This document shows positions 6,271-53,187 of a DNA stretch of 64,000 nt, one piece after another. Both the position numbers and the translations under genes were made by a program. The stretch lies in assembly GCA_937922085.1 (NCBI GenBank), contig CAKZVD010000007.1, positions 1 to 64,000 of the forward strand, read 5' to 3'. The notes under the pieces are model-generated. The model searched no databases. It saw only the letters and a program-made list of their open reading frames with translations, and was not told the DNA's origin. Origin of the DNA: an uncultured Tenacibaculum sp. (GTDB lineage Bacteria; Bacteroidota; Bacteroidia; Flavobacteriales; Flavobacteriaceae). How positions within the stretch are numbered: the stretch's first letter is position 1; every line of letters starts with the position of its first letter.

Positions 6271-9267
6271 ATGCAAAACAAAGGTCTCATTAGATTATTT
6301 GCAATCCTTTTCGGATTAGTAAGTTTATACCAATTATCATTTACATTTTTTGCTAATAAAGTAGAAGATGAAGCTAAAACTTATGCGCAAGATAACGCTG
6401 AGAAAAAAGACGATGGTAGAGAAATAGCAAGATTAGAGAAAAAATATACAGATAGCATCGCTAATAAAAATGTAGTTGCAGGTTATACTTACAATGACAT
6501 AAGAGACAAAGAAATGAATCTTGGTCTTGATTTAAAAGGTGGTATTAATGCTGTTTTACAAGTATCTGTTAGAGATATTTTAATTGGATTATCTAACGAT
6601 TCAAAAAATAAAGCATTTACAAATGCTTTAGCAAATGCTGATAAAGCTCAGGCAGATTCACAGGATGATTATATTGACTTATTCTATGCTGAGTTTGAAA
6701 AAGAAAGTAAAGGAAGTGTAAAACTTAGTGACCCAACCATTTTTGGTAATAAATTGCTTCGTGATAAAATTGACTTTAATAAAACAAATAATGAAGTAAA
6801 ACCTATTTTACAGGAAGAGATTAATGTTTCTATAAATACTGCTTTTGATGTTTTAAGAAGTCGTATTGATAAATTCGGTGTTGTACAACCAAACATTCAA
6901 AGAATTGGTACTTCTGGTAGAATTCAAGTTGAGTTACCTGGTGCTAAAGATATAGAGCGTGTAAAGAAATTATTAGTAAGTACTGCTAAGTTACAATTTT
7001 GGGAAGTATATTCAAATACTGAAGTTCTTCAATACTTATCTATAGCGAACTCAAAATCTATAGAAATTTTAAAGCAATCTTCTGAAAAAGACAATGTAAT
7101 TTCAGAAAAAGATTCAACTAAAACGGATATTGATGATTTATTAAATTCAGATGCTGATTCTACGTCAGTTGCGAATTCTAAAATGTTATTCAACTTTTTA
7201 ATTCCTAATCAACAACAATTAAGTTCTACAATAGGTTTTGCAAAAGTTCAAGATACTGCTCAAGTAAATAAACTATTAAAGAACAAACAAATAACTTCTT
7301 TAATTCCTAACAATTTAAGACATGTTAAGTTTTTATGGGATTACAAACCTTTTACTCCAAGATCTAATGACAAAGAAGATGAAGAAGTAAATACTGATGA
7401 AACTCAAAACCTTGTTAGCTTATATGCAATAAAATCTAACAGAAATGGAGAAGCAAATATAGAAGGTGATGTTATAGCTGATGCTTCACAACAATTTGAC
7501 CAAACAGGAAAGCCTGAAGTTAGTATGACTATGAACACTAGAGGTACTAAACTTTGGAGTTCCCTTACTGGAAAGAACATCAACAAATTTGTTGCTATTG
7601 TTTTAGATGACTATGTGTATTCTGCTCCAATAATTAAAGGTAAATTAGGAAGTACTTCATCTATATCTGGTGGTTCTATGACTGTTGAAGAAGCGCAAGA
7701 TATTTCTACGGTATTAAAAGCGGGTAAATTACCAGCTCCTGCTAGAATTATTGAATCAGAAATTGTTGGTCCTTCTTTAGGTAAAGAAGCTATTAACGCG
7801 AGTATGTGGTCATTCGGATTGGCTATTTTATTAGTCTTAGTTTGGATGGTTTTATACTATGGTAAAGCTGGTTTATATGCAAACATTGCTTTATTAGTAA
7901 ACATTTTATTCATTTTTGGTGCTTTAGCATCCTTTAGTGCTGTTTTAACATTACCTGGTATTGCCGGTATTATACTAACCATTGGTATGTCGGTAGATGC
8001 GAACGTTATTATCTTTGAAAGAATTAAAGAAGCTCTTAACTCAGGAAAAGGTTTAGGAGTAGCTGCTGATGAAGGATTTAGTATTAAAGGTGCCTTATCT
8101 GCAATTATAGATGCAAACATTACTACCTTATTAACAGGTGTTATATTATATGTTTTTGGTACTGGACCAATTAAAGGTTTTGCTTTAACATTAATGGTAG
8201 GTATTTTAACTTCTTTATTTACTGCAATTTTTATTACACAATTACTTGTAGATAATGCTGTTGCTAAAGGAACAAACCTTACTTTTAATACTAATGTATC
8301 TAAAAATTGGTTTAAGAATATCAATATCCAGTTTTTAAAGAAGCGTAAGATTGCTTATGTTGTTTCTGGTACTCTTATTTTAATTGGTTTAATCTCAATT
8401 TTTACTATTGGATTAAAACAAGGTGTTGATTTTAAAGGGGGACGTTCGTATACTGTTCGTTTTGACAAATCAATGAACGCAAATGAGGTAGCTTCCTCTT
8501 TAAAAGAAAAGTTTGGAAATGCTCCTGAAGTAAAAACATATGGTGCAAATAATCAATTAAAAATAACTACTGTATATAAAATTGAAGAGAAAACTAAGGA
8601 AGTAGATGAATTAGTACAAAAAGCATTATATGATGGTTTAAAACCTTACTTCACAAATTTAACTTACGAAAACTTTAAACCTGGTTTTGAAAAAATAGGA
8701 AACGCTCAAGGAATTATGAGTGCACGTAAAGTAGACCCTACTATTGCGGATGATATTAAAAATGACGCTTTATTAGCTGTTATTGGATCATTAATCGTTG
8801 TATTCTTATATATCTTATTACGTTTTAGAAAAATTTCTTTCTCTATTGGTGCTGTTGCTGCAGTTTTCCATGATGTATTAATTGTATTAGGTATCTTTTC
8901 TTTATTATACAAATTCATGCCTTTTGACATGGAAATAGGTCAATCATTCATTGCTGCAATTTTAACAGTGGTTGGTTACTCATTAAATGATACCGTGGTA
9001 ATATTTGATAGAATTAGAGAATATGCTGCCAATAGTAAAACTTTTACAGGAGAATTAGTAGATAAAGCTTTAAGTAGTACTTTAGGTAGAACTATTAATA
9101 CTTCATTAACTACTATGTTAGTTATGTTAGCTATCTTCTTCTTTGGAGGTGATAGTATTAGAGGGTTTATGTTTGGTTTAATAATTGGTGTATTAGTAGG
9201 TACGTACTCATCTTTATTTGTAGCTACTCCAGTTATGTTTGATGCAACTAAAAATAAAGAAGAATAA
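6271..9267 (+). CDS. secDF: SecDF protein translocase subunit (fused SecD-SecF)
   Basis: A 998-residue RND-type membrane protein that uses the proton gradient to help pull secreted proteins through SecYEG. The N-terminal SecD half has one membrane helix (about 7-27), a large periplasmic P1 domain carrying DLKGGINAVL and RSRIDKFGVVQPNIQ, and five helices from about residue 510 (with IILTIGMSVDANVIIFERI). The SecF half begins near 690 with its own first helix, VDFKGGRSYTVRF, and the SLNDTVVIFDRIRE membrane motif near 910. The D1/D4 signatures of both halves are intact. It is a single-gene transcript with its own promoter and terminator. Fused SecDF is normal in this phylum. Confidence 0.96.
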   Translation: MQNKGLIRLFAILFGLVSLYQLSFTFFANKVEDEAKTYAQDNAEKKDDGREIARLEKKYTDSIANKNVVAGYTYNDIRDKEMNLGLDLKGGINAVLQVSVRDILIGLSNDSKNKAFTNALANADKAQADSQDDYIDLFYAEFEKESKGSVKLSDPTIFGNKLLRDKIDFNKTNNEVKPILQEEINVSINTAFDVLRSRIDKFGVVQPNIQRIGTSGRIQVELPGAKDIERVKKLLVSTAKLQFWEVYSNTEVLQYLSIANSKSIEILKQSSEKDNVISEKDSTKTDIDDLLNSDADSTSVANSKMLFNFLIPNQQQLSSTIGFAKVQDTAQVNKLLKNKQITSLIPNNLRHVKFLWDYKPFTPRSNDKEDEEVNTDETQNLVSLYAIKSNRNGEANIEGDVIADASQQFDQTGKPEVSMTMNTRGTKLWSSLTGKNINKFVAIVLDDYVYSAPIIKGKLGSTSSISGGSMTVEEAQDISTVLKAGKLPAPARIIESEIVGPSLGKEAINASMWSFGLAILLVLVWMVLYYGKAGLYANIALLVNILFIFGALASFSAVLTLPGIAGIILTIGMSVDANVIIFERIKEALNSGKGLGVAADEGFSIKGALSAIIDANITTLLTGVILYVFGTGPIKGFALTLMVGILTSLFTAIFITQLLVDNAVAKGTNLTFNTNVSKNWFKNINIQFLKKRKIAYVVSGTLILIGLISIFTIGLKQGVDFKGGRSYTVRFDKSMNANEVASSLKEKFGNAPEVKTYGANNQLKITTVYKIEEKTKEVDELVQKALYDGLKPYFTNLTYENFKPGFEKIGNAQGIMSARKVDPTIADDIKNDALLAVIGSLIVVFLYILLRFRKISFSIGAVAAVFHDVLIVLGIFSLLYKFMPFDMEIGQSFIAAILTVVGYSLNDTVVIFDRIREYAANSKTFTGELVDKALSSTLGRTINTSLTTMLVMLAIFFFGGDSIRGFMFGLIIGVLVGTYSSLFVATPVMFDATKNKEE

Positions 9268-40560: not shown

Positions 40561-41967
40561 CTATTTTACTTCAAAAGATATTGGTAAAGTATATCCTACT
40601 TTTACCGCTTTCCCTTTATCTTCTCCTGGTTGTAACTTTGGCATTTTTTTAAGCATTCTTAATGCTTCCTCTTTCAACTTTGGATGAGGAGCTCTAGCTT
40701 TTGTTTCAATTAAATTTCCGTTTTCATCTATTTTAAATTGCACATAAATTCTTTTCTTACCTGGCTCTAACCCTAAACTATTTGCTAAATTGGTATTAAA
40801 ATTATTCTTTACAAAATCTCGCATATTTTTATTAAATGCATCTTTTCCTTCTCCTTTATTTATAAATGCAGGAACTTTATCTACAGCTGAAAATGGCATG
40901 TTACCATCTTGTAAAGATGCTTTATATTTTCTCCTAAGTAATTCTTTTAGAAATTCGTCTTTTTCTTCTTCAGAAATATGATCTTTTTTTATTTTTTCTT
41001 TTATTTTATTTAATAATTCTTTAGAAATTGGTGATACTGGAGGTGGAAGTAAATCTTCTTTATTTTTATCTGTTTCAATAGATGATTTCGTTTCTTTTTT
41101 AACTTCTTCTTGTATTTCATTATTAGAACATGCCGTATAGAAAAGCATACTTGCTAACATCGGTATTAATAATAAATACTTTAATTGTTGCACTTTTTTT
41201 GATTGTTTTTTAGTCATCATAATAATTCGTTTTTTAATTAATGAATGTTTATAAAACTGATTAATAAATGAAATATGCTCTACCTGAAAAATTTCAGATA
41301 ATAAATTGTTGATGTAGTTGGTTTTCTCGGTTGACTTACTAACCGTTTCGTCAGAAATAAATTCATGTACTAAAGCTATTCTGTTTTGATATAAATATAA
41401 CATTGGATTAAACCACATCACTATTTTTAAAAACTCAAAAACTAATAAATCAATAGTATGCCTTTGTTTGCTATGCACTAACTCATGTTCAATTATTTTA
41501 GATTTTTTCTCTTCTGGAATTTCTTTTCCTATAAAAATATAATTGAAGAATGAAAAAGCTCTCGAATTTTTAGGCAACAAAATTAATTTATAACCTTCCT
41601 TAGATATCTTTTCATGATTCGAAATTAATTTTATGATTTTAGTTAATTTTATTATAAAAACTATTAAAAACAATAAACTTCCTATTCCAAAAAGAACATC
41701 CATATAATTTATAGATTGATACCATGAAGCTTTTTCTATAATTGTTTGTGGTGATAAAATAATTTCTGGTAGCAAAATGGCATATTCTTGAGGAATTGCT
41801 TTCTGTAATGTTGGAATTTTAAGTAATGGTAAAACAAAAGATAAAACAGCCGTTGCCAATAAATAAAATCGGTTTTTTGTAAAAAAAGTTTCCTTACCTA
41901 AAAAGAAATCATAGACTGCTAAAAACAAAACTTGAAAGAATATTACTTGTATAATATATGTTAGCAT
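40561..41967 (-). CDS. BlaR1/MecR1-type M56 metallopeptidase with TonB-C tail
   Basis: A 468-residue membrane protein. Four helices (about 4-20, 33-50, 88-108 and about 262-278) surround a zinc protease site HELVH at 161-165, as in BlaR1/MecR1 sensors that trigger cleavage of BlaI-type repressors. Unlike BlaR1 there is no penicillin-binding sensor domain; the periplasmic part ends in a VDKVPAF motif and a TonB C-terminal-type domain (about 380-468). The signal it senses is unknown. It lies 5 nt after the BlaI-type gene. Confidence 0.88.
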   Translation of the reverse strand: MLTYIIQVIFFQVLFLAVYDFFLGKETFFTKNRFYLLATAVLSFVLPLLKIPTLQKAIPQEYAILLPEIILSPQTIIEKASWYQSINYMDVLFGIGSLLFLIVFIIKLTKIIKLISNHEKISKEGYKLILLPKNSRAFSFFNYIFIGKEIPEEKKSKIIEHELVHSKQRHTIDLLVFEFLKIVMWFNPMLYLYQNRIALVHEFISDETVSKSTEKTNYINNLLSEIFQVEHISFINQFYKHSLIKKRIIMMTKKQSKKVQQLKYLLLIPMLASMLFYTACSNNEIQEEVKKETKSSIETDKNKEDLLPPPVSPISKELLNKIKEKIKKDHISEEEKDEFLKELLRRKYKASLQDGNMPFSAVDKVPAFINKGEGKDAFNKNMRDFVKNNFNTNLANSLGLEPGKKRIYVQFKIDENGNLIETKARAPHPKLKEEALRMLKKMPKLQPGEDKGKAVKVGYTLPISFEVK

Positions 41968-41972
41968 AACAG

Positions 41973-42341
41973 TTATTTTTTATTTTTTTTATTCACTTCT
42001 TTCAAAATACTTTCTAACTCATTGATATCCATTTTGTTTTCCTTCATAAAAAAAGACACCATACTTTTAAATGAACCTTCAAAATATCCGTTCATTAGTT
42101 TATGTAAACTTTGATTGCTATACGCTTTTTTTTCAATGATAGGAAAATAAACATACCCTCTACCTTTAGGATTGTGGCCAACAAATTCTTTTGTTTCTAA
42201 AATTCTAATAATAGTTGAAACTGTATTATAAGCTGGCTTTGGTTGCGGAAGTTTCTCTATTACTTCTTTAACAGAGGCTTCATTTAATTGCCATAATACT
42301 TGCATTATTTGCTCTTCTGCTTTTGTTAGTTGTTTACCCAT
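41973..42341 (-). CDS. BlaI/MecI/CopY-family repressor
   Basis: A 122-residue winged-helix repressor. MGKQLTKAEEQIMQVLWQLNEASVKEVIE and PKPAYNTVSTIIRILETKEFVGHNPKGRGYVYFP are the family's DNA-binding half; the C-terminal half mediates dimerisation and holds the cleavage region. It should bind the palindrome 34 nt upstream and be inactivated by the M56 partner encoded directly downstream. Confidence 0.94.
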   Translation of the reverse strand: MGKQLTKAEEQIMQVLWQLNEASVKEVIEKLPQPKPAYNTVSTIIRILETKEFVGHNPKGRGYVYFPIIEKKAYSNQSLHKLMNGYFEGSFKSMVSFFMKENKMDINELESILKEVNKKNKK

Positions 42342-42374: not shown

Positions 42375-42416
42375 ATATAACTAAAAAATTAGTTTAAACT
42401 AATTTTTTAGTTATAT
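42375..42416 (-). promoter_or_regulatory. Operator/promoter of the blaI-blaR1 pair
   Basis: A perfect 42-bp palindrome (half-site ATATAACTAAAAAATTAGTTT, given in two arms meeting at 42395/42396). One end overlaps a -7 box read on the minus strand as TATATTTG (42372-42379). A dimeric repressor bound here would block RNA polymerase. No other copy was noticed in the window. Confidence 0.75.
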
Positions 42417-42573: not shown

Positions 42574-42623
42574 CTTACATTAGTCATAGGAATATTCCTA
42601 CATTATTAAATAATAAAAAAAAT

Positions 42624-42866
42624 ATGAGATTAAAAGAGTTTAGAAAGCTATCTAAAAAAGAATTGTTAGAGATTAAAGCAGGTCATAATTGTTTAAGGCA
42701 TGCAGATGAAGGCGGAGGAGGTGGCGGAGGAGCCGCTACTTGTACTGCAACATGTTTACCCCACAATGGAGCAGAATATACTGTTACTTGTAGTGGAACT
42801 GCATGTACTGCCACAGATTACGATGGCTGTGAGTCTGAAAATGAATCTAAAGCTTGTAGAACATAA
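42624..42866 (+). CDS. Cys-rich secreted peptide precursor 1
   Basis: An 80-residue precursor from ATG 42624 (the longer frame from 42564 overlaps the inverted repeat). The leader MRLKEFRKLSKKELLEIKAG resembles double-Gly-type leaders of bacteriocin and RiPP-like peptides of Bacteroidetes, with AG in place of GG. The core begins HNCLRHADE, then seven Gly, and has seven Cys in all, including CTATDYDGC. Export by a C39-peptidase ABC transporter is expected from the leader, but none is in the window. Product activity unknown; antimicrobial or signalling peptide is the inference. Paralogue follows 13 nt downstream. Confidence 0.7.
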   Translation: MRLKEFRKLSKKELLEIKAGHNCLRHADEGGGGGGGAATCTATCLPHNGAEYTVTCSGTACTATDYDGCESENESKACRT

Positions 42867-42879
42867 TAAAATTGAAACT

Positions 42880-43128
42880 ATGAAATTTTTAAACAAAATA
42901 GAAAGCATCCTTTTAACCAAGCAGGAAATGAAAAATATTTTCGCTGGTCATAATTGTATAAGGCACGCAGATGAAGGTGGCGGAGGAGGAAGTCCATCTG
43001 CATCTGTAACTGCATATTGTGGTGGGCATTCTGTAACTTGTAAAGGCACTTTTAATTGTACTGCCACCGATTACGAAGGTTGTTCATGTGATGATGGCAA
43101 AGACGAAAAAACTTGTATCGTATTATAA
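42880..43128 (+). CDS. Cys-rich secreted peptide precursor 2
   Basis: An 82-residue precursor from ATG 42880. Leader ends LTKQEMKNIFAG; core begins HNCIRHADE and five Gly, and carries seven Cys with CTATDYEGC. It shares with precursor 1 the cleavage-type AG, the HNC[LI]RHADE-Gly start and the CTATDY[DE]GC block, while the region between differs. It ends 1 nt before a strong terminator. The long frame starting at 42700 in this reading frame runs through precursor 1 and is not the real start. Confidence 0.7.
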   Translation: MKFLNKIESILLTKQEMKNIFAGHNCIRHADEGGGGGSPSASVTAYCGGHSVTCKGTFNCTATDYEGCSCDDGKDEKTCIVL

Positions 43129-43129
43129 T

Positions 43130-43163
43130 AATAAGCGGTTGTATAAAAACAACCGCTTATTTT
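43130..43163 (+). terminator. Terminator after the peptide genes
   Basis: AATAAGCGGTTG (43130-43141) pairs with CAACCGCTTATT (43150-43161) over an 8-nt loop and leads into a short T-run. The thioredoxin gene starts 14 nt later, so part of the transcript may read through into it. Confidence 0.75.
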
Positions 43164-43176
43164 AAAAAACAATTCT

Positions 43177-44505
43177 ATGAAATATTTTATACCTTTTTTA
43201 ATTTTAATACTAACATTTTTTATCAGCTGTAAAATAGAAAATGAACAAAAAGAAACTACGCAAATTATAATTGATTTAGATTTACAAAAAAATAATGGGG
43301 AGTTTATTAATCCTATTAGTCCTTTTGCTCATCTTAGGAAAGAACTTTATAAAGACTTTAAAGGAGTACCTAAGTTAGATAGTATTTCTATACAAATGCA
43401 TCGTACATATAGTTTAAGAGATTTAAAAAAAAAATTAGCTGATAAAGTTATTGATTCTACTTCTTTTAAAAACTTTATTTATGGCGTTTATGCAGTAACA
43501 GGATTTGAAAATGGGAAACAGTTTTTAATTGTTGATGTTAATAATAACAAAGATTTTAATGATGATGTTAAACAAATATTTAGTAATAAACTTCATGAAT
43601 CTCCAACAGATTATAAAGCAAGAGATTCTATTTTTAAGGTTTTTAAAATAAAAACAAACACCTATCACAAAGGTGAAATAATAGAAAAACATAGTTATAT
43701 TAGACCTTTTCCTTATAAGGATTTCTATACTTATAAAAACCCCACTAAAGAGATTATAAGAGAAAACAATTTTCAACTTGCTAGTCAATACAATCAACAT
43801 TATTCTGGAGAGTTTCAAAATAATTACAAAGTAGCTATACAAAATTTTAACAAAAGAACAACAATTCTTTTTGCTAAAAAAAATGAAACCTTTAAACCTA
43901 AAACTAGAGGTGTTTATTATACTAAATATGCTGTAAATGATACTGTAAAATTAGAAACAGCATCTTTTAAAATAGATAGTTTAGATCCAATTAAAAATAA
44001 GCTTTTTTTAAGTAAAATAGATGATTCATTAGTTAAATTTGGCTACAGACCAAATGATAAAATAAAAGATTTTGGTTTCTATGATATAAAAAAGAATAGA
44101 AATAAAATATCAACTATCTTAAAAAACAAAGAATACATCTTATTAGATTTTTGGGGTACGTGGTGCGAACCTTGTAAAAAACTTACTCCCGACTTATTAG
44201 AAATTAATGAAAAAATTCCTTCTGTACAAGTAATAGGAATTGCCTATGATTTTAATGAAAAAGCAGTAAACGAATATATCAAAAAAAACAAACTCAATTG
44301 GGTGAATATTTTTGAAAAAAGAGTCTACAAGGATAGCCTACTTCATAAAAAAATAGTAAACCAATTAAATGTTATAAATTATCCTACATTTTTCCTTATC
44401 AATAAAAAAAGAAAAATTGTATACAGAGGTTACGGAAAAAGTTCTTTAGATTCTATTAAGAAAATATTAAATTTTAAATCTATTATTGCAAATTCAAATT
44501 CCTGA
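43177..44505 (+). CDS. TlpA-type thioredoxin-like lipoprotein
   Basis: A 442-residue lipoprotein (lipobox TFFISC, Cys19). Residues about 20-300 are an unrecognised beta-rich domain with a Ca-binding-like VDVNNNKDFNDD turn; residues about 305-442 are a thioredoxin fold with the redox motif WCEPC (Cys330, Cys333) and the cis-Pro strand YPTFFLI. It should exchange disulfides in the periplasm. Its position directly after two Cys-rich peptide genes suggests it may form or reduce their disulfides, but such proteins are common and this link is inference. Confidence 0.88.
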   Translation: MKYFIPFLILILTFFISCKIENEQKETTQIIIDLDLQKNNGEFINPISPFAHLRKELYKDFKGVPKLDSISIQMHRTYSLRDLKKKLADKVIDSTSFKNFIYGVYAVTGFENGKQFLIVDVNNNKDFNDDVKQIFSNKLHESPTDYKARDSIFKVFKIKTNTYHKGEIIEKHSYIRPFPYKDFYTYKNPTKEIIRENNFQLASQYNQHYSGEFQNNYKVAIQNFNKRTTILFAKKNETFKPKTRGVYYTKYAVNDTVKLETASFKIDSLDPIKNKLFLSKIDDSLVKFGYRPNDKIKDFGFYDIKKNRNKISTILKNKEYILLDFWGTWCEPCKKLTPDLLEINEKIPSVQVIGIAYDFNEKAVNEYIKKNKLNWVNIFEKRVYKDSLLHKKIVNQLNVINYPTFFLINKKRKIVYRGYGKSSLDSIKKILNFKSIIANSNS

Positions 44506-51609: not shown

Positions 51610-53187
51610 ATGATTTACCCATCAATAAATACCATAAAAAAATATTTAATTATACTTAACATCTATTTTTTTAACACATTACATTCTCAACAATTTTCTA
51701 ATGTTTTTTTTTCAAGAAAACAAATTCAAAAAATCTTACAATCAAGTAAAAAAAACTTATAATGAAGCTCTAAAAAATAAAGACACAATACATATAATTA
51801 AAAACTTACTAGCAATGGGTGTGTACCAACGAACACATTTAAATTATGGAAATGCTTTTAATCATACTGGAAATGCTCTTTTTTTAGCAGAACAATTTAA
51901 AGACACTTTATTAATAGCAAAAGCTCTTGATGAAAATGGAGTACTCAACTACCTATATAAACAAGATGAGTTAGCAGGTGCTAGTTTTAAAAAAGCACAT
52001 TTATTATATAAAAAAGCTTATAAAAAAAGAGGCTTAAGACAGAAGAGTTATACCAATCCTATTATAATTTAGTTTTATATTATCAACGAACTTCAAATCA
52101 AAAATTATTAAAGAAATATATTGACAGCTCTTACCAAATAGCTAAAAACAGTAAAAGAGCAACTATTTTAAATAGCTATCTTAATGAAAAAAGAGCTACC
52201 CTTCTAAAATTAAATAAAAAAAACAACGAAGCTATTGAATTATTAAAACAATCTATTGTAAACTTTGAATCTCTCGATACTTCAGAAGTAGATAATAGTT
52301 TTCTTATAATTTTATATGCTTCGATTGGTGATTTATATAGAATTGAAGGTGATTTTAATAATGCTCGTATTTATTTTGAAAAATCTATTATGACTAAAGA
52401 TGTTTATGGAGAACATACTTTTTACAAAGCATATGTACATTCTCGTTATGCCTACGTACTTCATAAAATGGGAAAATATGAAAATGCTTATAAAAATATA
52501 ATATCTTCTCAAAAGATTAATAACACTTACCTAAATCCAAGAAATGAAAATAATCAAGATTTTTTAATTATAAAAAACCAATATAGAAACTTAATAAACA
52601 AACAAAACAAATTACTAAACTCACAAAAACTTAAACTAGTAGAAAAAACACAAAAAATACTTTATTTTAGAATTTTCTTTTTTATTGTTTTATTCTTTTT
52701 AATTTTAATTGGTTTATTAGCTTGGTATAAAATGAAATCTTTAAAACACAAAGAACAACAAGATATTTCAAAACAAATAATTGATTTTAAAAACAAAGAA
52801 CTAACATCTAATACTCTTCGGCTAATTGAAAAAGAAGGCATTATAAAAACTCTTAGTGATCATGTTCGAAAACATCAAATTGATACTACTTCAAAAACAT
52901 TACTTAAATCTATTGAAAAACGTTCAAAAAGTTTATGGGATGATTTTAATAATCGCTTTACAGAACAAAACACAGGTTTTTATGAACGTTTACAAAAAAA
53001 AGCACCAAATTTAAGTTCTTCTGATTTAAAAATATGCGCTCTTATTAAATTAAATTTTTCAGGTAAAGAAATGGCTTACTTATTAGGTATTTCTCTAGGA
53101 AGTGTACATGTTGCTCGTCATAGATTAAGAAAAAAAATGAACTTAGAAAGAGAGATAAACCTAACTACTTTTATTACTTCTATTTAA
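51610..53187 (+). pseudogene. TPR-transmembrane-HTH regulator with two frameshifts
   Basis: The complete gene reads from ATG 51610 (signal peptide, ...NTLHSQQFSN) through TPR units, one membrane helix (ILYFRIFFFIVLFFLILIGLLAW) and a C-terminal LuxR-type helix-turn-helix (SGKEMAYLLGISLGSVHVARHRLRKK). It is interrupted twice: at a T9 run (51704-51712), where eight T would keep the frame, and at an A7 run (52022-52028), where eight A would. The first and last parts are in the same frame and the middle part in another. Such proteins regulate genes near them, here probably the sulfatase and GH82 genes. Mutation, phase-variable repeats or base-count errors are all possible. Confidence 0.75.

Follow-up and report, generated by a model that had tools for sequence, protein, structure and literature searches.

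Tandem cysteine-rich peptide genes with double-glycine-type leaders beside a thioredoxin-fold lipoprotein gene in an uncultured Tenacibaculum

Why does an uncultured Tenacibaculum carry two adjacent small genes for cysteine-rich, leader-bearing precursors directly upstream of a gene for a thioredoxin-type lipoprotein? The three genes lie in positions 1 to 64,000 of contig CAKZVD010000007.1 (assembly GCA_937922085.1), the 64 kb stretch that we analysed as a whole and refer to as the window; we call the peptide genes pepA and pepB. A sequence-only reading had proposed that they encode exported peptides, disulfide-bonded or otherwise modified. We find that they are a real and probably functional pair from an uncatalogued family of cysteine-rich exported peptides. 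On balance we favour the more specific reading that PepA and PepB are exported, leader-cleaved, disulfide-bonded and bacteriocin-like, and that the lipoprotein acts on their disulfides.

On the forward strand, pepA (42624..42866) encodes an 80-residue precursor with a leader of residues 1-20 (42624..42683, ending IKAG) and a predicted mature part that starts HNC, and pepB (42880..43128) encodes an 82-residue precursor with a leader of residues 1-23 (ending IFAG). The translations agree with the sequence-only reading in the leader stretches KKELLEIKAG (PepA) and KQEMKNIFAG (PepB), the start HNC[LI]RHADE followed by seven glycines in PepA and five in PepB, the CTATDY[DE]GC block and the seven cysteines in each precursor. 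The paralogy it had claimed is not chance, given that a PepA search of the same genome recovers PepB over residues 8-73 with 61% identity (E 2.8e-17). Of the 74 aligned codons, 39 encode the same residue, in 13 cases by different codons. Non-synonymous and synonymous divergence (dN and dS) are 0.63 and 1.19 in the leader and 0.075 and 0.99 in the 15 codons of the HNC/poly-Gly block, where codons are few and the alignment of the Gly run is arbitrary. Such a low dN beside a high dS points to constraint, and in this small sample selection, rather than very recent copying, seems to maintain the block.

PepA alone retrieves two entries from the protein database, itself and P0002 (85% identical), whereas a five-sequence profile (A2) retrieves eight and a nine-sequence profile (A3) 22 at E <=0.01, including the window's own P0001 and P0004. 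In an alignment of 19 family sequences (the window peptides read from DNA; P0017, P0019 and P0021 excluded) 11 columns are invariant, five of them Cys. The A-type core reads C[TS]AxC..VTCxGxxCTATDYxGC...C; B-type copies lack its first Cys and have CSC instead, so that five core cysteines are invariant and the sixth differs between the types. PepA/PepB, P0002/P0003 and P0007/P0008 each consist of one A-type and one B-type copy. Since the longest contig reported is equal within a pair (62,526 nt for both P0002 and P0003; 2,024 nt for both P0007 and P0008), we infer that the members of these two pairs are also genomic neighbours. HNC and poly-Gly are absent from P0007 and P0008, and the P0007 leader ends GG; the HNC/poly-Gly start and the AG ending are therefore local features, and the former does not hold as a hallmark of the family. 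No match is a core inside a larger protein, which the sequence-only reading had named as a finding that would speak against it; this part stands for the 22 matches of 65-107 residues, in a search that admits only proteins of 0.55-1.75 times the query length.

Nineteen of the 22 matches carry a GG or AG leader. In double-glycine leaders position -12 is hydrophobic, -8 mostly acidic or polar, -4 hydrophobic, and -2/-1 read [GA]G. Both window leaders follow this pattern, with L-12, E-8, I-4, A-2 and G-1 (L-7 in PepA, M-7 in PepB). Leader conservation across relatives, on which the sequence-only reading had also depended, is present: positions -12, -4 and -1 fit in 18 of the 19 GG/AG members listed, or in all 19 if P0016 is cut after GGG, and position -8 is Lys in two. 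The remaining three proteins (P0015, P0017 and P0019) carry the cysteine core behind what reads by eye as a Sec-type signal peptide, which argues that the core works outside the cytoplasm.

Across 166 genomes of the genus, the A3 profile matches in 22 at E 0.05. Only the two window peptides and two peptides of genome G546, of the same genus, fall below 1e-20 (P0005 and P0006, from uncultured Tenacibaculum, are letter-identical to the G546 peptides); G433 comes next at 5.1e-5, and many of the remaining matches are leader-side matches to other GG peptides. PepA as a single query matches in 15 of the 166 at E up to 1, all except its own genome at 0.04 or weaker. These weak matches (L003-L016) lie mostly within long open frames and were discarded; one (L008) encodes a Sec-type Cys-rich protein. 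PepA alone has no match in GTDB r220 contigs or in plasmids, and a GTDB r220 scan for CTATDYVG gave six pattern stretches, none confirmed.

No Pfam or NCBIfam match of any family member scanned reaches its cut-off, where a cut-off is printed (NCBIfam scans exclude P0015, P0018, P0019 and P0021; Pfam scans exclude P0010-P0014, P0016, P0018, P0019, P0021 and P0022), and none of the 22 matches has a precomputed Pfam domain. The suggestion that the core is not a described class thus holds for the models scanned, and the titles and abstract starts listed from the open-access literature do not name it. In P0005, P0006 and P0022 the leader stretch approaches an NCBIfam bacteriocin-type model without reaching its cut-off, at best with P0022 at 22.2 of 23.5 bits against NF047798 (leader_Chryseo) and P0006 at 19.2 of 21.5 bits against TIGR03949 (lactobin A/cerein 7B). 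With these two models, TIGR01847 (bacteriocin_sig) and TIGR04149 (GG_sam_targ_CFB) the family shares double-glycine leaders and weak leader-region matches in several relatives, but PepA, PepB, P0002, P0003, P0007 and P0008 have no match at E 1 and no radical SAM enzyme was recognised by eye near the window peptides. One of nine members, P0006, matches Pfam Bacteriocin_IIc (PF10439) at E 1, with 16.9 of 27.1 bits, and P0020 (Pedobacter polaris) is named Bacteriocin in UniRef. Other candidates were rejected: the sublancin family (TIGR04196; 18.1 bits against a cut-off of 40, one of nine members) reflects composition, NVEALA proteins, a further candidate, gave no such match in the Pfam scans, and the PDB entries that the peptide profile matched in sequence have unrelated names and a best E of 0.013, which we regard as noise. 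PADLOC has no match for PepA, PepB or the lipoprotein.

The lipoprotein gene (43177..44505, forward strand) encodes 442 residues, with a domain at about 27-285 that has no assignment and a ResA/TlpA-type thioredoxin domain at about 289-440 that contains WCEPC. The TlpA-type lipoprotein named by the sequence-only reading is thus confirmed by its lipobox Cys, WCEPC motif and thioredoxin domain. An AlphaFold2 model built with 12 sequences has a mean predicted local distance difference test (pLDDT) score of 81; residues 289-440 match ResA/TlpA-type structures, with match rows mainly over 284-440, and a profile match links the protein to ResA 4nmu (E 5.2e-23). On this model the lipoprotein is a ResA/TlpA-fold thiol-disulfide protein. 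It resembles the ResA/TlpA oxidoreductases in its C-terminal thioredoxin fold with CxxC, and differs from them in an N-terminal domain of about 260 residues without a Pfam match at cut-off and in its peptide-gene neighbourhood. All 12 aligned sequences (window and 11 relatives) keep WCxPC and the lipid Cys; a copy without an ATG start (L031) was left out of this alignment and reads WCKPC. Seven of the 166 genus genomes (eight matches) and six of the 397 family genomes contain a relative at E 1e-20, own genome included in both; a search of phages with the lipoprotein gave no match.

Peptide and thioredoxin genes recur together. Around 12 lipoprotein relatives other than that of the window we counted open reading frames (ORFs) with a GG-type leader and >=3 later Cys within 1 kb, a pattern devised after examples had been seen, so that the rates are descriptive. 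Four of the 12 loci contain such ORFs, five in all (two in L030, one each in L031, L036 and L081). Beyond 1 kb, 145.5 kb of the same loci hold two, both from the L081 cluster of G314, and the comparison loci L003-L016 hold none in 43.8 kb. In total, one or more peptide genes are followed by a same-strand thioredoxin-family gene at 15 junctions in nine loci of eight genomes (three each in L071 and L081, two each in L088 and L090, and one each in the window, L030, L031, L036 and L089). Three of these junctions, that of L031 and a single one in each of L071 and L081, were added by hand to the scripted count. L071 and L081 each contain one ORF whose start runs into the peptide gene and probably lies too far upstream. 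The choice of loci is not neutral, given that L030, L031, L036 and L081 were found via the lipoprotein and L071 after its thioredoxin neighbour had been noticed; the peptide profile alone led to L088-L090. A further L030 peptide has no thioredoxin-family neighbour. The thioredoxin partner is thus recurring though not obligate. Between the peptide and lipoprotein genes of L030 lies a decayed third peptide copy (8722-8832; leader ending LKG, early stop), a case of paralogue decay.

Several of these units sit in export clusters. In G314, from another genus of the family, co-oriented genes encode a C39-VKOR-thioredoxin fusion, a peptide, a 507-residue thioredoxin protein, a peptide, a 452-residue lipoprotein relative and a transporter (709 residues, named by eye) whose frame starts within a C39-like stretch, followed by a HlyD-like protein, a third peptide and a 549-residue thioredoxin protein. 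Three of the four class-level matches of a further profile (A5) outside the own genome (G834, G896 and G797) lie in similar clusters, with the fusion, a thioredoxin-family gene directly downstream of a peptide gene, a C39 ATP-binding cassette (ABC) protein that is a Pfam match, and a HlyD-like gene (HlyD was scanned in locus L066 only and is named by resemblance elsewhere). The G896 fusion includes the VKOR part and its thioredoxin-family neighbour has CSPC; by eye, glycosyltransferase-like genes are interspersed in the G896 and G797 clusters. The proposed co-occurrence of the peptides with C39 transporters is therefore found: C39 exporters and C39-VKOR-thioredoxin fusions share clusters with relatives of the core or of the lipoprotein. 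VKOR is present in six of seven genomes with related units (G417 is without), and no paper listed from the open-access literature (subscription papers outside scope) joins VKOR with C39 or double-glycine peptides in Bacteroidota.

An exporter in the same cluster is present in G314, G834, G896 and G797; none was recognised in the window ORF lists, read by eye. The genome of PepA and PepB does encode a C39 ABC exporter, as expected for double-glycine peptides: its three C39 matches are a 718-residue C39 ABC protein (contig C18), a 784-residue frame (C17) and a lone domain (C24). The window thus holds an orphan peptide-thioredoxin unit with C39 exporters elsewhere in the genome. The C18 gene stands at a contig start (L028, 133-3051) with a thioredoxin-like gene and a 61-residue hydrophobic ORF, a set that resembles the bacteroidetocin gene set and whose precursor gene may lie beyond the contig end. 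The C24 domain (L067, 3469-3975) is a C39 peptidase domain of 168 residues that stands alone, lacks an ABC part, has a hydrophobic stretch at its N-terminus and lies about 2.5 kb from a GG peptide. On C17 (L029, 6062-10438), a radical-SAM-like protein (by eye), the C39-containing frame and two Cys/Gly-rich GG-leader precursors form a separate cluster like those of ribosomally synthesised and post-translationally modified peptides (RiPPs).

Among described systems, the bacteroidetocins come close: they are experimentally tested class II bacteriocins of Bacteroidota (Bacteroides) with GG leaders and Cys-containing mature peptides (Coyne et al. 2019, PMC6671954). Their clusters contain an adjacent thiol oxidoreductase whose deletion attenuates the toxin and whose expression gives no protection, no immunity protein was found, leaders have 15-16 residues and mature peptides four Cys. 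Shared with the window are the GG-type leader, the Cys-containing mature peptide, the neighbouring thiol oxidoreductase and a C39-type exporter in the system; C39 transporters are also common in Bacteroidales RiPP clusters (PMC10352776). Compared by description rather than by sequence alignment, PepA and PepB differ in their leaders of 20 and 23 residues and seven Cys, the exporter is adjacent there and not in the window, and the window lipoprotein has a large extra domain.

Under the reading that we favour, an ABC exporter with a C39 domain, the product of a gene outside the window, would cut PepA and PepB after A-G and export a mature peptide starting HNC. Outside, the conserved cysteine core would fold with disulfide bonds and HNC...poly-Gly would form a flexible N-terminal tail, while the co-oriented lipoprotein at the cell envelope would perform thiol-disulfide exchange on the peptides (isomerisation, or reduction of wrong pairs). 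The mature peptides would then act extracellularly on related bacteria as bacteriocin-like agents, an antibacterial activity suggested by analogy with the bacteroidetocins. Of the two parts of the original proposal, exported disulfide-bonded peptides remain the best reading, given the leaders and C39 clusters, and modification in other ways is the less likely part: nothing in the window ORF list was recognised as a modification enzyme (ORFs >=90 residues, the first 75 residues of each read by eye), and the radical-SAM-like/C39 cluster on C17 has its own precursors. An unmodified class II-like peptide is therefore likelier than a modified one.

Several results weigh against the favoured reading. 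No C39 exporter was recognised in the same ORF list over the 64 kb, by eye and not by profile, and VKOR was not found in the own genome, an assembly of 3.67 Mb in 123 contigs that is 67.75% complete. This absence may be an assembly gap, because own contig C74, with a GG-peptide array and HlyD, ends where the syntenic contig C13 of G546 continues to a C39 ABC protein and VKOR. G671, the fourth and weakest class-level match, has no such export cluster. The family is rare: PepA matches only its own genome among 397 of the family (E 0.01), and A5 matches in 5 of 395 of the class, own included. For eight of the 12 lipoprotein relatives, including the pair with the best scores (L078 in G311 and L079 in G308), the surrounding 1 kb contains no such peptide. 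Most GG peptides of the genus do not neighbour a thioredoxin gene. Among 25 loci of weaker profile matches, read by eye over about 3 kb each, only L048 (later L071) has a thioredoxin neighbour, and in the peptide arrays L066, L068 and L072 a thioredoxin-motif gene follows 0 of 12, 14 and 5 listed peptides. The structural model of PepA is weak (pLDDT 66) and has no fold match at E 0.001, weaker matches being noise.

For the lipoprotein we favour a maturation factor over an immunity role because loss of the bacteroidetocin oxidoreductase attenuated the toxin. A peptide-specific neutraliser, which would protect the producer by reducing the neighbouring peptide's disulfides at its envelope, is less likely, with a small but real chance. 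Clusters have one C39-VKOR-thioredoxin-type fusion but several peptide-plus-thioredoxin units (three in G314 and G470, two in G834 and G797, one in G896), as expected for cognate partners, and several thioredoxin proteins per fusion suggest a peptide-specific role. The active site CEPC also equals that of ResA, a reductase. Set against this, the bacteroidetocin enzyme was needed for full activity and left a sensitive strain unprotected, and eight of 12 lipoprotein relatives lack a peptide. It is unlikely but conceivable that Bacteroidota use a modular toxin-partner system: every disulfide-rich peptide that they export would come with its own thioredoxin-fold lipoprotein, which would specifically reduce that peptide at the producer surface (immunity by disulfide reduction), and the core would have moved between C39 and Sec routes. 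It seems quite improbable that the peptides alone matter and that the lipoprotein, as a general ResA/TlpA protein, stands beside them without any link; the relatives without a nearby peptide and the hairpin that separates the genes (below) would fit, whereas the junctions in nine loci of eight genomes, three loci of them found by peptide profile alone, would not.

The peptides themselves could, improbably, be signals (pheromones) rather than antibacterial agents, given that GG leaders and C39 exporters also serve quorum-signalling peptides (PMC6363468). A protein with a LuxR-like C-terminus (52390-53187, by eye) is encoded about 8 kb away, but the ORF list, read by eye, shows no recognisable histidine kinase or receptor next to the peptide genes. 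Predicted mature peptides of about 60 residues are also, as far as we are aware, large for known pheromones. No more probable is a role as secreted structural, metal-binding or redox-buffer domains: the Cys-rich composition and the core behind Sec-type signals would suit it, but the A/B pairing and clustering with C39 exporters would fit bacteriocin-like sets better.

Between pepB and the lipoprotein gene lies a 13-bp hairpin (43130..43161, forward strand; dG -17.9, z -8.4, 0 of 200 shuffles as stable), with a short T run that is only partly outside the stem. It is a candidate terminator, attenuator or mRNA-end structure, and a consensus scan does not list it. A hairpin separates the peptide and lipoprotein genes at all four junctions folded of the 15 known (z -8.4 in the window, -5.2 in L030, -3.3 in L081 and -4.0 in L031), with a weak T run in the window and L030; such hairpins would suit a system in which the peptides are highly expressed and the lipoprotein less so. 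A BlaI-like gene (41973-42341) stands divergent to pepA and an M56/BlaR1-like gene (40561-41967) comes next, both named by eye. A perfect 42-nt palindrome (42375..42416) between the BlaI-like gene and pepA is possibly an operator and, if so, would more probably serve the BlaI-like gene than pepA. Just before pepA, the 14-nt palindrome TAGGAATATTCCTA (42587-42600) is another candidate operator. Rfam has no match in the window.

Elsewhere in the genus, about a dozen GG-leader Cys-rich peptide genes surround a HlyD gene at the end of own contig C74 (L066, 10927-16360), and the syntenic L068 of G546 has more, plus a C39 ABC protein and a VKOR fusion. These arrays and that of G540 (contig C2) share genus, GG leaders, Cys-containing cores and HlyD with the window family, and those of G546 and G540 also have a C39 transporter gene. 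They differ in a leader that is mostly MKK.ILNLGK.L.K.EQK.INGG, in having mostly four or six Cys, and in listed peptides that no thioredoxin-motif gene follows. L066 and L068 represent a large peptide arsenal that has gone unstudied in this genus.

Here, we define a family of Cys-rich peptides for which none of the Pfam or NCBIfam models scanned scores above its cut-off, together with a peptide-plus-thioredoxin unit that recurs in the export clusters of Bacteroidota. How disulfide-rich bacteriocin-like peptides are folded, and how producers protect themselves from them, seems poorly known in Gram-negative Bacteroidota, and the question becomes testable because the peptide-then-thioredoxin pairing repeats. 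The occurrence of the same core behind two unrelated export signals offers a handle on the function of the domain itself.

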